64,000 nt of DNA from Lepraria neglecta (taxonomy: Eukaryota; Ascomycota; Lecanoromycetes; Lecanorales; Stereocaulaceae), in NCBI GenBank assembly GCA_033220425.1, contig CM065651.1:3472001-3536000 (forward strand). The letters run 5' to 3'. Under the pieces are notes generated by a model, which was given only the letters and a program-made list of their open reading frames with translations, was not told where the DNA came from and did no database searches. Positions within the stretch are counted from its first letter, which is position 1. Each line of letters begins with the position of its first letter. The translations under genes were made by a program, and so were the position numbers. Shown here in pieces: positions 57,287 to 64,000 of the stretch.

Positions 57287-60088
57287 CTACTCCATCTTCT
57301 CGTCACCATCTACGTCGACTGTAGCTCCGGTATCACGGGCACGGGCTTTGGCTGCCTTGCGGAGTGCTGTACGCTGCTTATTCTTTTCTTTCTTGTTTTT
57401 GTGTGACTTTGGGGGCCCTTGGGATGATGAAGGAGAAGATTCGTTCTGGTCTGAAGGTGGGAATTCATGCAGTGGCTCTTGAACACTAGGGTCGAAGATA
57501 AATTCAGGAGCTCCTATCGTAATATGAGGAATGGACGGCTCCATGGCGTTGACCGACGAACCTTGGACATCAGGATCAACGATCTGCTCGACGTCAGGTG
57601 GGGTATCCGCCATTGTATTTGACCCAGTCTGCATCTTGAATGAAGTCTGATCCCAGATACTTGAGAATTTTGCGTTTTGGGGTGGGAAAGTCTGGGAGGA
57701 AGCTGCGTCGTTATTCCATGGGTTGCCATATGTGGCATTTGGAGGCCAGGTTGCGGTTGATATCTGAGTAGGATATCTTGCTCTCCCAGTGAAATTGTTC
57801 CACTTGAATTCATTCTCGGGTTTGGGGACTGTATGTTGAGATGCTTGGTCCACGGGTTGCTCTTGCGACGAGTGTGGCTGCGCCCTGGACTGCTTCACGA
57901 AGGGGTTGCTAGTAGTGGGAATTGAGAAATTGAATTGAGGCTGCTTGACTTCAGCCTCAGTCTCAGTCTCTTGCTCGGCGTGGTCCCTAGGCATCTTTTG
58001 TTGCCATGGAGCCTGAGGGGCTGGTTGCTGTGTGAAGGAGCCTGAGGTTGCCGAAAATGGAGAAGTGAAACCTTCTTGCTTTGACTTGGCTTCAGCCTCC
58101 GGTGGTATGTCGTATGATGGGTGATATTCGCTCTGCTCCTGCCGCTGTGTGAATAGGAGCTCGGAGCGCTTCATGGATGGGTTTGAAGTGTTCGGGAATT
58201 GGAAGTCGGACGTTTCTTGGTTAAGACTAGTCTCGAACTCCGGTTGGGCTGGACCTGCAGGCTGGGCTTGCTGCCATGGAAATTGAGATTCGAAGCGGTC
58301 CATGAACGGATCCGTAGTGGCCTGGAAGGCGCCACCGAAGGGATCCTGCTTCACCGCGGTCTTAGCTTCCGGCACTGTGCGTTGAAAGGATGTTGTTCTG
58401 GGCTGCTCTTCGGGAGACTCAGATGGAGGCGGGATATTTAGGTTAAAAGAGCCTACAGTCATATTCGAGATCGCGTCCAGAGTAATCTTTTTGCCAAAGG
58501 ACTTTGAGTGTTGCCCTGGGACGAAGTGTCCGGGAAAGGCGAGAAGTGCCTGCTGAGAAGAGCTTGTGGTGGTCCTAGGCTTCGGCTTCCCAGTCGCCAT
58601 TGTCTTGTCTAATCTCTTCTTCTCCGCCTTAAGCTTTTCGAAATCCTTCTTGAGCGACTCATAAGTATCTTGCAGATTCAGTCTCATGCCCATTTCTGTT
58701 ATGAAGCCTTGAACGGCATCATTGACCATCCATTGGTGTGTATTATATAGAGCGACCATGTTGTTGTCGTACTGGCCTTTGAGATAGTAGAGGTACTGGA
58801 TGTCTTTGATCCTTGACTCAAGCTGGGCTTTGAGGCTGGCGTTTTCGGCGCCAGCTTTGTTGATCATCCTCAGGTATGTGCCCTTGGCATCGTCCGCCTC
58901 TAACAAGGCTGTGACTTGCTCCAGCTTGGCCGCATTGCTCTCGCTGATAGACTTGCCTTCTGAGCAAATTGGTTTGCCTGCCAGGAACTGGCTGTGGAAG
59001 TCATCAAGGTTCTTCTTCAGCCTCTTTTTTTCAACGACAGCGGCGTTCAGACGGTCACTCATCTTGTAGTAATCAGGGTGCACATTGTACAACATGCATT
59101 CTAGCTCGCAAACCTGCTTCTTGAGAACCGTCATGTGCGGAATGCAACACATCACTCCCTTCCAAAGGGCAGCGTTCTGTGTCTTGATATCGAGGCTATC
59201 CGCTTCAGCTTTTCGTAGCAAAGCATCTTTGCTCTCAATAAATGCATCCTTCTGGGCAGAATCGGCGGAGAGCTTCGCAAATTTCTTGTCCATTGTCTGC
59301 TTCTGAACTTTCATGTTCCGCTTCAAACGCTCGACTTCGCTATTGAGGCTCTTCTCAAGAAGTTCTTTGTCTGCCTTGTGCTCATCGTTCAGGATCTCGA
59401 TCTCAGTTTGGTGAGCTGATTCCTTGAGTCGTAGAACACCCTCCCACTCCTTCGTGATTTCTGCCTCGGCTCCTTCATTTTTGTCCTGCTCTGCTTCGGA
59501 CTCAGAGACCGTGGACTCGGTGTCGCTACCAAGTGTATCAAGCCGCTGGTTAGCAGAATCTTCAGATTCAACCGGACTTGGACTTCTTGAAGACGAGTTG
59601 GCGGTCAGGGGCGAGATTGTTGATTCGGGCGAGTTAACATATTCGTTGTCCATAGATGTATTCTTCGGTGAGGTATCGAGCACGAGAGGTGTACTCCAAC
59701 GCCTTGAGCGTCTATTGTGACCTGCAGATCTATTACTTGAGTTCTGGCTTATCATTGCGAAGGCTGAAGTCTTACCTAATGTGTGGTTGTCGAGGGCAGA
59801 GACCTCGACTGCAGCAGGCTCCGGCAAAGGTGATCCCTCATCCATTACAGGCTGATGCATGTTAGGAGATATGAGAATGCGTTTGTCTGTGGTTAGGATC
59901 CTCTGATCATCTCTAACAGAAGGCGATTCTTTCTTGTTGTGTGCTTCTAGGAACCCTTCATACAAGGTTTTCTCTGGTAGCGATGAACATATAAGGCAAT
60001 CCTCAGAGAAAATCTTACAAGCTTGCTTAAGGATCCATCGCATGAATCTAGAGGCAGCCTTGTGCTCCTGCTCCCGGAGCTGGGCCAT
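57287..60088 (-). CDS. Large coiled-coil protein with FxxP-type C-terminal repeats
   Basis: 933 residues from the ATG at 60088 (MAQLREQEHKAASRF); the frame is open a little further upstream but without ATG. Order of regions: helical N-terminus (about 1-50); a Ser-rich acidic part; long coiled coil (about 215-510, with KELLEKSLNSEVERLKRN and SLKKDFEKLKAEKKRLD); then a disordered Gln/Pro/Phe-rich region. That region carries three or four diverged units of about 60 residues, each with a core like TTDPFMDRF, TSNPSMKRS, TSGSFTQQ or TTSNPFVKQ. The end is Lys/Arg-rich (KNKKEKNKQRTALRKAAKAR). No enzymatic domain. The NPF/DPF-like words hint at endocytic adaptor binding (EH or AP-2 type), but that is inference. 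Function unknown. Confidence 0.7.
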   Translation of the reverse strand: MAQLREQEHKAASRFMRWILKQACKIFSEDCLICSSLPEKTLYEGFLEAHNKKESPSVRDDQRILTTDKRILISPNMHQPVMDEGSPLPEPAAVEVSALDNHTLGKTSAFAMISQNSSNRSAGHNRRSRRWSTPLVLDTSPKNTSMDNEYVNSPESTISPLTANSSSRSPSPVESEDSANQRLDTLGSDTESTVSESEAEQDKNEGAEAEITKEWEGVLRLKESAHQTEIEILNDEHKADKELLEKSLNSEVERLKRNMKVQKQTMDKKFAKLSADSAQKDAFIESKDALLRKAEADSLDIKTQNAALWKGVMCCIPHMTVLKKQVCELECMLYNVHPDYYKMSDRLNAAVVEKKRLKKNLDDFHSQFLAGKPICSEGKSISESNAAKLEQVTALLEADDAKGTYLRMINKAGAENASLKAQLESRIKDIQYLYYLKGQYDNNMVALYNTHQWMVNDAVQGFITEMGMRLNLQDTYESLKKDFEKLKAEKKRLDKTMATGKPKPRTTTSSSQQALLAFPGHFVPGQHSKSFGKKITLDAISNMTVGSFNLNIPPPSESPEEQPRTTSFQRTVPEAKTAVKQDPFGGAFQATTDPFMDRFESQFPWQQAQPAGPAQPEFETSLNQETSDFQFPNTSNPSMKRSELLFTQRQEQSEYHPSYDIPPEAEAKSKQEGFTSPFSATSGSFTQQPAPQAPWQQKMPRDHAEQETETEAEVKQPQFNFSIPTTSNPFVKQSRAQPHSSQEQPVDQASQHTVPKPENEFKWNNFTGRARYPTQISTATWPPNATYGNPWNNDAASSQTFPPQNAKFSSIWDQTSFKMQTGSNTMADTPPDVEQIVDPDVQGSSVNAMEPSIPHITIGAPEFIFDPSVQEPLHEFPPSDQNESSPSSSQGPPKSHKNKKEKNKQRTALRKAAKARARDTGATVDVDGDEKME

Positions 60089-60931
60089 TTTGACGACGTC
60101 CAGAAACGTAACAAAAGGCAAAGGTCGATGTTTGGTGTTGAGTGATGATTTGAGGATGCTGATGTGTAAGGGCCGCGGATGAAAGTAGATGTTGACGTAT
60201 GAGGATGGAAGTTGATATTAACTTATGAGGATGCAACAATTTTCTTGAGTAGTGAATAGAGTGCGAGTTGTTTATGATGTAGAAGAGTGGTGGTGTTGGA
60301 GGTGTGAGGTTGAGTGAGGGTGAGGATTGGAGAGGAATGGAGTGGAAGTTTATGTGGCTGGGATTTGAAGATCCTATTGTGGATTTATTGTGAGTAGGCT
60401 CAATTGTCGCGAATTAGCCGCGGGATGGTGAAGGTCAAGCGTGTATCAATCGTCTAAACACAGAGATTTTCTACTCCAAAAATCAACACACTGCCCGGGT
60501 TCGATACCTTTCCTCTGTGACACTTCAAACCCTTCCTGTCTAATCAACTTGACGATCACCTCTCACCTATCCTTCCCTTTACGCACAACTCTCCAGCTCG
60601 CCAAGGGCTCCAGACAGACCCACAAAACCTCTTACAGCGGTTTGAACGGCGTCAACATCACTCCGAAAGATCTTGAAACGGCTCGTATCATGGGCCTCAG
60701 CCCCGTTATTTCGGTACACTAGTATATTTGATTACCCTTAGAATCAGAGAGTTGACACACCATAAGAGCGGTTTCAGAGAGTGTTTTCAAGTGTCGAAGC
60801 ATCGGTATTTTATTCAAATTTTGGCAAGCACTAAGGACTTACTCCGTGACCTTGCTCAGAATGTCACACCTTCTCGGCCTAGAGACCATAAATTCTACTA
60901 CTACTTCACCGAAACGGAACATTCGTCAAGT
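60089..60931. other. Divergent upstream region
   Basis: About 840 bases between the start of the coiled-coil gene and the decayed F-box gene. A 93-codon open frame at 60441-60722 has modest protein-like content at its end, but I cannot attach it to a gene. Confidence 0.35.
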
Positions 60932-62523
60932 ATGGGGACCAGAGCCCGCCTGCCACCAGATATTCTGTTGATGATATTCGAAGAGCTTCAAGATACAAAC
61001 TCGCTGCGAACTCTACACCTTGTTTCAACACAATTCGGGGACTTACTAGCGCCAATTCTGTACCGTCACGTCGTTCTAACTGGACAAATTGTCGTACAAT
61101 ATGAAGAATACATTTACAAAAAGCGTTTGGGTGATTACTCAGCCTTTCAGCTCCAAATAAGCCTTTTTACAAGGCATGTAACAATTCAATACCCTTATGA
61201 CTGGCCATCAGCGATGAACCTATTGGATACATTGGATACATTGGATAACCTCGAATCGATTATGTGAGTCAAACATTTCTTTTCACTGCTTATACTACCA
61301 TTCACATCCGTTCTGGTCCTTATTCTCAACTCCATATTCACCACAGCGAATAGATACTAATTCGAGACAACAGGTGGAGCGGCTGGTCCTATGAACCCAA
61401 CACCGAAACCGTTAGCTCTAACTCAGATTACTCTGATGCTCTTGCGTTTGAAAAGATCTGGCGCAGGTGGCCTAACATCAAATACGCCTTCGAGGGACTC
61501 AAGGCTTCATCTTGGTCTGCTAAGAATCTGGGAACCTTGGCTCCTGTCCAGCTTACTTACTGCAAGCTTGTTGAATGGGATATGCTCTCCTACGCAAAAC
61601 ATGGTAATAGAGTCCTACATATTAACGGCAGTAACGATCACGCAACAAGCAGGGAAGAGAATATCGACTATCAAGATAGACTTCCCCCAGTAAATAATTA
61701 GTCCTCCATCATTTCGATTGGGCGCATTTAGCACAAACTGCCGTATACTTCTGGGACTGGTCCAATCCCACACGACTGGAGTTGAAGAAAGTGCCTATCA
61801 TACCACTTCTACAGACAGTGGCCCCAAAGCATCTCGCCCAGCTCCAAGAGTTCACCTCAGATGGTTACTGTCATCATCCGACCGAATGAGAGGAGGCTAC
61901 AAATCTGATCTCGATACTCGTTAATGGCATACGTGCCCTTCGCAAACTCATCCTGACATGCTATGTTGGGAATGACAAATGCATGTCTGCAGTCCTAAAG
62001 CACGGAAGCACGCTGCGTACACTTCAGGTTCGGGCCTACCGCCAACCTCAAACGCGACTCATAGAAGACAGATTTGGCTAGGCACCACTGAATGAGAGTC
62101 AACTAGAGAGAATTGGGAAAGCCTATGCCCACTTAACTACTCTGGTGTTGGATTGCGAGCCAGAATCAATCACGGCATTGTCTGATATCATTATTCTGCC
62201 AAGATGGACTGGAATAAACAGTGAATAGCGAGGTGCTCAGCATGGCTTCGAGATCTCGGGTGAGGACAGCATGCTGACTGCTTTCCTCAATCTTCGTAGG
62301 CTGACACTCTAGGCCTGGATCCGCTACCATGTCACGACCGAATACTGCAAAGTGACTTTGGCTAGGAATAGCAACGATGGAAAAGGCTGGGTTAGTCGAC
62401 TGGTCTCTGAAAAGCAAGGCGCTTGGTTTGAGCAAATCGAATTGGAGTTGGATATTTTCGGAGAATACTTGGGGACTCAGACGTTCAACTACCGAGCCGA
62501 CTGAGGGTAGTACACTTCGGAAT
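60932..62523 (+). pseudogene. F-box protein gene, decayed
   Basis: The ATG at 60932 begins with a textbook F-box: ARLPPDILLMIFEELQD, SLRTLHLVSTQFGDLLAPIL, LYRHVVL. F-box proteins link substrates to SCF ubiquitin ligases. An intron (GTGAGT at 61265 to CAACAG at 61373) joins in phase to WSGWSYEPNTETVSS and on to a TAG near 61698. The homologous text then continues in a different frame (VLHHFDWAHLAQTAVYFWDW) with in-frame TGA at 61887-61889 and TAG at 62079-62081, then LLE/LDC-type leucine-rich blocks (AYAHLTTLVLDCEPESITAL). Further right, another frame holds GAWFEQIELELDIFGEYLG and ends near 62509. Two or more frameshifts and several stops show the gene is dead. Confidence 0.72.
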
Positions 62524-63049: not shown

Positions 63050-63285
63050 TGTTGTTGCTTCTTATATCCTGCCTTACGATATGACAACCGAACAGATCCC
63101 TTGAGCGGACAACGTGTCGCTTTTCGCTACAGTTGAGCGAAATCCCCTTCAATCATCCGTTCGCCTAAACCAGAGACACATCCGCTCTAAGGATCCTCGC
63201 CCTTCAACATTATAGATCTTGAGGTTTTCGAGCCAGCATCCCGTCCAATTTCCCCGCACAAAATGTACAATGCCTTGTTTAAATA

Positions 63286-64000
63286 TCGACCTTGATTCCG
63301 ATATACGATCGCTAGGTTCTGTACCGTTCTTAGCGTATCAGGATGCGTAGCCCCTAACTTTTCCTCCTTGCCGGTTAATACCCGCTCGTAGAGCTTCTCC
63401 GCCTCGTCGTATCGACCTTGATTCCGGTATAAGATCGCTAGGTTCTATACCGTTCTTAGCGTATCAGGATGCGTAGCCCCTAACTTTTCCTCCCTGCCGG
63501 TTAATTACCGCTCGTAGAGCTTCTCCGCCTCGTCGTATCGACCTTGATTCCGATATACGTTCGCTAGGTTCTCTACCGTCCCTAACGTATCAGGATGCGT
63601 AGCCCCTAACTTTTCCTCCCTGCCGGTTAATTACCGCTCGTAGAGCTTCTCCGCCTCGTTGTATCGACCTTGATCCCGATATACGATCGCTAGGTTCTCT
63701 ACCGTCCCTAACGTATCAGGATGCGTAGCCCCTAACTTTTCCTCCCTGCCGGTTAATACCCGCTCGTAGAGCCTCTCCGCCTCGTTGTATCGACCTTGAT
63801 CCCGATATACGATCGCTAGGTTCTGTACCGTTCTTAGCGTATCAGGATGCGTAGCCCCTAACTTTTCCTCCCTGCCGGTTAATACCCGCTCGTAGAGCTT
63901 ATCCGCCTCGTTGTATCGACCTTGATCCTGATATACGTTCGCTAGGTTCTGTACCGATCTTAGCGTATCAGGATGCGTAGCCCCTAACTTTTCCTCCTTG
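63286..64000 (-). repeat. Tandem array of 126-bp TPR-coding units
   Basis: Nearly identical units of exactly 126 bp recur across the right edge; the shared word GCGTAGCCCCTAACTTTTCC starts near 63344, 63470, 63596, 63722, 63848 and 63974. Read on the minus strand, each unit encodes 42 residues of the kinesin-light-chain type TPR: KLGATHPDTLRTVQNLA, then a Y-x-x-QGRY(N/D)EAEKLYERVLTG(K/R)EE part. Units differ by a handful of bases. The last unit, at the left end, breaks off after QGRY near 63286 into unrelated sequence. The array continues beyond 64000. Confidence 0.92.
63631..64000 (-). CDS. TPR-repeat protein, C-terminal part (runs off the right edge)
   Basis: The minus-strand frame enters at base 64000 and stays open through about three TPR units until a TAA at 63631-63633. 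Beyond that stop the same frame continues through more units with further stops (TAA at 63505-63507, TAG at 63445-63447) to about 63286. In filamentous fungi such arrays of near-identical 42-residue TPRs most often form the ligand-binding C-terminus of NLR-like proteins with NB-ARC or NACHT domains, or of effector-patatin/NB-ARC fusions. The N-terminal domains lie outside the window, so that is inference only. The gene could still make a protein with fewer repeats, or be dead. Confidence 0.7.
   Translation of the reverse strand, partial: KEEKLGATHPDTLRSVQNLANVYQDQGRYNEADKLYERVLTGREEKLGATHPDTLRTVQNLAIVYRDQGRYNEAERLYERVLTGREEKLGATHPDTLGTVENLAIVYRDQGRYNEAEKLYER

Follow-up and report, generated by a model that had tools for sequence, protein, structure and literature searches.

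Repeat array at the end of the window

The window, by which we mean the whole stretch of 64,000 nucleotides that was analyzed (G000:C6:3472001-3536000), belongs to the 42.0-Mb, 11-contig genome of the lichen fungus Lepraria neglecta, and its end falls inside an array of 126-bp TPR units on the minus strand. The whole array comprises 11 units (G000:C6:3535277-3536662, minus strand, equivalent to L007 1278-2663, where a window position is the L007 position plus 61999); these were numbered 1 to 11 in the order of translation, and the left side of the window holds the C-terminal units. The in-window part was detected by TRF at 63284-63997 as 5.7 copies with 95% matches. The first-pass annotation had described six 126-bp units of high identity with stops in the leftmost ones; the array is real and the stops are present, but the window holds only 5.7 of the 11 units, and the leftmost units are the C-terminal ones, with unit 9 being the first stop-bearing unit that translation would reach. 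The end of the array is covered by an open reading frame at 63187-63444 (L007 1188-1445), and a Pfam search of the extended TPR open reading frame (436 aa, best 25 of 41 families considered) returned TPR_12/TPR_10. The features of the locus are collected in Table 1.

Table 1. Positions of the array units and flanking features (window numbering unless another reference is given).
Feature	Position	Strand	Remarks
Units 1-6, linker, predicted intron, and kinase	L007 1908-4223 = C6:3535907-3538222	minus	extending beyond the window end
TPR unit 6, in-window part	63907-64000	minus	open frame; remainder past the window end
TPR unit 7	63781-63906	minus	open frame
TPR unit 8, last complete translated unit	63655-63780	minus	four two-unit states in common with unit 9
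TPR unit 9, first in-frame stop	63529-63654	minus	TAA 63631-63633, codon 8; mosaic of tracts resembling units 10 and 8
TPR unit 10	63403-63528	minus	TAA 63505-63507, codon 8; TAG 63445-63447, codon 28
TPR unit 11	63277-63402	minus	without a stop; final codons diverge from the repeat
Post-array tail	63187-63276	minus	29 non-repeat codons and the frame-closing stop 63187-63189

The mean pairwise nucleotide identity of the 11 units is 0.923, and their mean protein identity is 0.849, slightly below 85%. For units 1-8 the corresponding values are 0.934 and 0.859, with 0.762 for the lowest protein pair, which places these units among the repeats of high internal conservation as defined in the accessible text of PMC4986451 (at least 85% repeat identity over at least 100 aa), the identity being taken here as a pairwise mean and not from that paper's own program. 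Two further open frames were recorded elsewhere in the window, one of 196 codons encoding an F-box-like domain (60677-61267, plus strand, E 3.1e-7) and one of 976 codons (57287-60217, minus strand) for which Pfam gave no match up to E 0.001.

A kinase open reading frame upstream of the array

Extension past position 64000 revealed a 431-codon open reading frame upstream of the array on the same strand that encodes a Ser/Thr kinase (Pkinase, E 6.9e-58, residues 50-309) and aligns to RAD53 over residues 55-309. Its translation contains AVKEIS, HRDLKPKN, and GDFG; we take the AVK Lys, HRD, and DFG to be the Ser/Thr kinase catalytic motifs, and by this measure the predicted protein would have those of an active enzyme. 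NB-ARC, NACHT, or patatin domains had been anticipated at this site, but none was matched by Pfam in the kinase open reading frame, in the 93-aa stretch preceding unit 1, or in three other nearby open reading frames. This 93-aa stretch, which follows the in-frame stop, gave no Pfam match up to E 1, and the kinase open reading frame matches kinase families only. The absence of a start codon, or of an effector or nucleotide-binding domain, had been named as evidence that would count against the initial reading; the gene has both a start codon and a domain of effector-like type, and a nucleotide-binding domain was not found in these stretches. PKinase is listed as an NLR domain in the accessible portions of PMC4986451 and PMC12258605, and it stands among the N-terminal domains in the former, so that the Pkinase match qualifies as an N-terminal effector domain according to that list.

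The kinase and array open reading frames lie in the same frame and are separated by a single TAA, which would be removed in frame by a candidate 99-bp intron (GTAAGC...AAG) or by a 198-bp alternative that has the same donor and the acceptor TTCTGCAG. Among the 18 in-frame GT-AG pairs of the scanned stretch that remove this TAA, the donor was of the filtered types in two, both of which use this donor. A relative, P0001, shows 97% identity across the kinase (48% of the query) and follows the exon of the window gene up to the donor, then continues in the other frame of that gene; this switch just past the donor indicates an indel inside the proposed intron. The resulting gene model starts at L007 4223 and predicts a protein of 830 aa, or of 797 aa with the alternative acceptor. 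Kinase and array would thus be linked in frame, provided that the candidate intron is spliced.

Kinase paralogues in the same genome carry other tails, and one of them (L041) has ankyrin repeats. By hand count, Ank_2 occurs in 22 of the best 120 of 603 protein matches to the kinase query, and others have WD40-type families. A protein of Aspergillus karnatakaensis (P0026) that combines Pkinase with TPR_12 matches 85% of the query at 29% identity. The protein searches, evaluated for the best 120 matches each, yielded the kinase relative P0001 and relatives of the C4 NLR described below but nothing recognizable as the window array, and no second-strain copy of this array was recognized among the protein matches listed.

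In-frame stops and probable exchange between units

Units 1-8 are open, and units 9 and 10 both have TAA in place of GTA at codon 8, as had been noted at the outset for these two positions and is seen here on the minus strand. Unit 10 additionally has TAG in place of CAG at codon 28; this TAG had been correctly located but was assigned to a third unit, whereas the TPR register places it in the same unit as the second TAA. The change from GTA to TAA involves two bases, and the deletion of one G together with the insertion of one A yields identical letters. A 17-mer that includes the TAA, GAGCGGTAATTAACCGG, occurs at only two sites in the 42-Mb genome when up to one mismatch is allowed, these being units 9 and 10, and the same search detected no further genomic site that could have donated the TAA. 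With 64 minority cells in the 11 x 126 matrix, which corresponds to a rate of 0.046, any one other unit would gain both derived bases independently with a chance of approximately 2.4e-4, and either neighbor with a chance of approximately 5e-4, in what is a rough model with independent sites.

The distribution of variants among the units bears on how the two stops arose. The TA at unit sites 21-22 is restricted to units 9 and 10, and the states at sites 69, 72, and 74, along with G at site 81, are common to units 8 and 9 only. All four combinations of site 21 with sites 69, 72, and 74 are present among the units, which requires either exchange or that the same double change arose twice. Over the whole window array, 20 of 66 informative column pairs are incompatible. 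Ten of the 12 states shared by exactly two units are found in adjacent units (expected, 2.2), a count that treats columns as independent although the states are not independent events; counted by unit pairs instead, 4 of 6 are adjacent. We conclude that exchange between units very probably took place after the stop arose.

Units 9 and 10 are identical over 74 bp around the stop and differ at 7 sites, compared with a mean of 8.76 for all pairs, and 42% of pairs are equally close or closer. The 7 differences and the closeness of so many other pairs give no support to a recent whole-unit duplication. Taken together, the 74-bp identity and the differences elsewhere imply that the copied tract was less than a unit in length, or that a unit was copied and patched afterward; from the sequence, the copied piece looks like a sub-unit tract rather than a whole recent unit. 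The original proposal that a mutated unit had itself been copied is therefore upheld with respect to copying after the stop had formed, for which the four combinations and the adjacency of 10 of 12 shared states speak, but not with respect to a whole-unit copy. Unit 10 has three private states, including the TAG, and unit 9 has none, perhaps a weak hint that the TAA is older in unit 10 than in unit 9. The longest identical tract inside the array (118 bp) was found between units 3/4 and units 10/11 (L007 1404-1529 and 2286-2411, plus the next units). Its span across a distance of seven units suggests an older multi-unit exchange.

The closest array and a survey of the genome

The closest array in the genome (C4:367339-368724) consists of 11 open units behind an NB-ARC domain in a 943-codon open reading frame, with patatin matches in the two open reading frames immediately upstream on the same strand. 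The initial description of the window array as NLR-type agrees with this match. The C4 array and the window array on C6 share 90% identity; beyond the arrays, the stretches compared gave only chance-like matches of 13-18 bp (E at least 0.2). Homology that is restricted to the array indicates that the repeats moved or were exchanged without the rest of the gene. Codons 6, 8, 12, 25, 28, 32, 33, 35, 36, and 41 vary at the amino-acid level in both arrays. Relatives of the C4 NLR in public data include P0209, with 4 complete units and a like ending, and P0122, with 8 complete units and other sequence at its end, compared with the 11 units of C4.

The genome is rich in TPR arrays: the units of the window array had 127 genome matches, which were merged by hand into approximately 60 loci. 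A survey of 38 stretches of these loci provided 30 arrays with 4 to 21 units each. Mean protein identity was at least 85% in 5 of the 30 arrays, and an in-frame stop was present in 7. At least one complete unit lies beyond the stop in four, namely the window array, C2:5047426, C5:282911, and the degenerate C5:1355168, and a stop at the same codon of at least two units occurs in two, the window array and C5:282911. The excess of neighbor-shared states is largest in the window array; a similar neighbor bias was observed for C4:1039355 (5/6) and C5:2173779 (7/9), and many of the 30 arrays are without it.

Two of these loci were inspected individually. The NB-ARC-like NLR at C2:5047426-5049063 (L061, plus strand) has a single CAA to TAA change in unit 9 of 13, past which four further units and a different C-terminal tail are open. 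At C5:282911-284926 (L019/L029, minus strand), a 16-unit TPR array with a mean identity of 0.896 has seven TAG stops. Its TAG codons include codon 40 of units 4, 6, 7, and 12 and codon 37 of units 1 and 7, in non-adjacent units. Upstream there are open fragments only, one with a sub-threshold AAA_22 match, and the locus looks like a dead NLR array. Among its transition columns, 15 of 22 are in CpA/TpG context (background, 23%), and units with the same stop show no significant resemblance to one another (0.15 for codon 40 and 0.72 for codon 37). With stops of the CpA/TpG type in units that are not significantly alike, recurrence is possible there; the stops fit a RIP-like change, and copying at this locus is not separated from recurrence.

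The transition columns of the window array show no such excess, with 2 of 17 in CpA/TpG context against a background of 9%. As the source of the TAA pair, RIP was ruled out by the type of mutation and the sequence context. The pN/pS ratio of the window array is 0.98 over the 11 units, the second highest of the 30 arrays (range, 0.32 to 1.02), and is 0.97 in units 1-8 and 0.69 in units 9-11, the last value deriving from three units only, a number too small for interpretation. The ratio of 0.97 in units 1-8 fits diversification or relaxed constraint equally well.

Discussion

The shared stop is real as sequence and is best explained by known exchange among repeats, of the kind on record for self/non-self genes of fungi. 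We favor, as probable when taken as a whole, an account in which neighboring units of a kinase-TPR receptor-like protein exchange sequence and a copied TAA truncates the protein at unit 9. The array would be the C-terminal portion of a receptor-like protein that has no nucleotide-binding domain and in which an N-terminal Ser/Thr kinase and a linker precede a TPR array of high internal conservation as on fungal NLRs, and the TPRs would presumably bind a recognition target. Neighboring units may swap short tracts through unequal crossing-over, slippage, or gene conversion. Codon 8 of one C-terminal unit would have become TAA by a change of two bases, and the tract bearing it would then have been copied into the adjacent unit. 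Translation would stop in unit 9 and leave 8 complete TPR units, with the array past the stop persisting as untranslated repeats that are still close to the other units. Whether the gene model corresponds to a working truncated kinase-TPR protein is, in our estimate, evenly balanced.

The stops could instead have no role and mark a decaying pseudogene, having been spread by repeat exchange after the gene had died. Three stops in the last units and a pN/pS near 1 are compatible with decay, the other array with same-position stops (C5:282911) lies downstream of a broken NLR nucleotide-binding region, and the gene was not recognizable among annotated Lepraria neglecta proteins in the best 120 of 603 matches. 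We nevertheless consider a pseudogene unlikely, if deserving of serious attention, given that neither the kinase open reading frame nor units 1-8 are interrupted, that the kinase retains its motifs, and that it is 97% identical in P0001, although the P0001 indel falls outside the kinase domain. An error of assembly or polishing that placed the same wrong letters in two near-identical units appears very unlikely. Such repeats pose difficulties for assembly and polishing, two compensating one-base indels would account for the change, and the accessible text of PMC12222747 attributes a similar one-base deletion in a Podospora repeat to misassembly. An error, however, would have had to keep the frame, and the 7 other sites at which units 9 and 10 differ mean that the two units were resolved from one another.

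Independent origin of the same double change, or a RIP-like mutation, in both units is scarcely credible. The CAG to TAG change in unit 10 is of RIP type, and the context bias and dissimilar carriers at C5:282911 make recurrence possible at that locus, but GTA to TAA is neither a C-to-T nor a G-to-A change, the window array is without the CpA/TpG excess, and the rough model given above assigns a very small chance to the same two bases changing in both units. It is likewise highly improbable that the stops are skipped by an intron that removes the stop-bearing part so that unit 11 is translated. The change does create GTAATT, which from its sequence is a possible donor; such an intron would nevertheless need to start in unit 9 and end, with the frame kept, late in unit 10 or in unit 11, and the related C4 array is open through all 11 units.

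Selection would not be expected to favor stops at one and the same codon in two neighboring units, and shared in-phase stops are consequently clean markers of repeat exchange. They reveal array turnover from one genome, without population data, in a fungus that is reportedly asexual, the word being used in the title of its genome paper. A more speculative extension, which follows the first-pass annotation and which we consider improbable, is that the stop-bearing units act as a movable end-marker: copying would reset the number of TPR units displayed, and the units past the stop would constitute a silent, homogenized store that could be re-entered by exchange. The array itself points to a single transfer of the stop. 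If the stop does travel, the length of the receptor would depend on a mutation carried about within the array, and a lichen fungus said to be asexual would vary that length by mitotic exchange alone. New in this work are a predicted kinase with an NLR-type array in which a nucleotide-binding domain was not found, the species, and the use of phase-matched stops as markers. The predicted presence of an NLR-type sensor array on a kinase also bears on part-swapping among fungal recognition proteins.

The nearest precedent for the exchange is the Podospora NWD family, for which the accessible parts of PMC1805685, PMC2873952, and PMC12222747 describe concerted evolution, changes in repeat number, stops in arrays, unequal crossing-over, and an 88-bp conversion tract in one mutant. 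Like the NWD/HNWD genes of Podospora anserina (het-d, het-e, het-r, and the pseudogenes NWDp1 and NWDp2, whose WD40 repeats are of high internal conservation), the window array has near-identical units, exchange, and stops inside the array. In those sources the architecture is HET-NACHT-WD40 and the stops are described in single repeats, whereas here a kinase-TPR protein without a nucleotide-binding domain is predicted and the stop has the same position in neighboring units; in the portions of the literature on fungal repeat arrays available to us, we found no description of the latter arrangement. For fungal NLRs, the accessible text of PMC4986451 reports TPR arrays of high identity whose repeat number varies. 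The window array resembles those of the patatin/NB-ARC/TPR NLRs, being 90% identical to the array of such a locus in the same genome, but NB-ARC and NACHT were not found in the window gene, unlike in fungal TPR NLRs. With the fungal kinase-repeat proteins that have ankyrin, WD40, or TPR domains, such as P0026, the window gene shares its layout, a related kinase at the N terminus with a repeat domain behind it, and it differs from them in having near-identical NLR-type repeats and stops.
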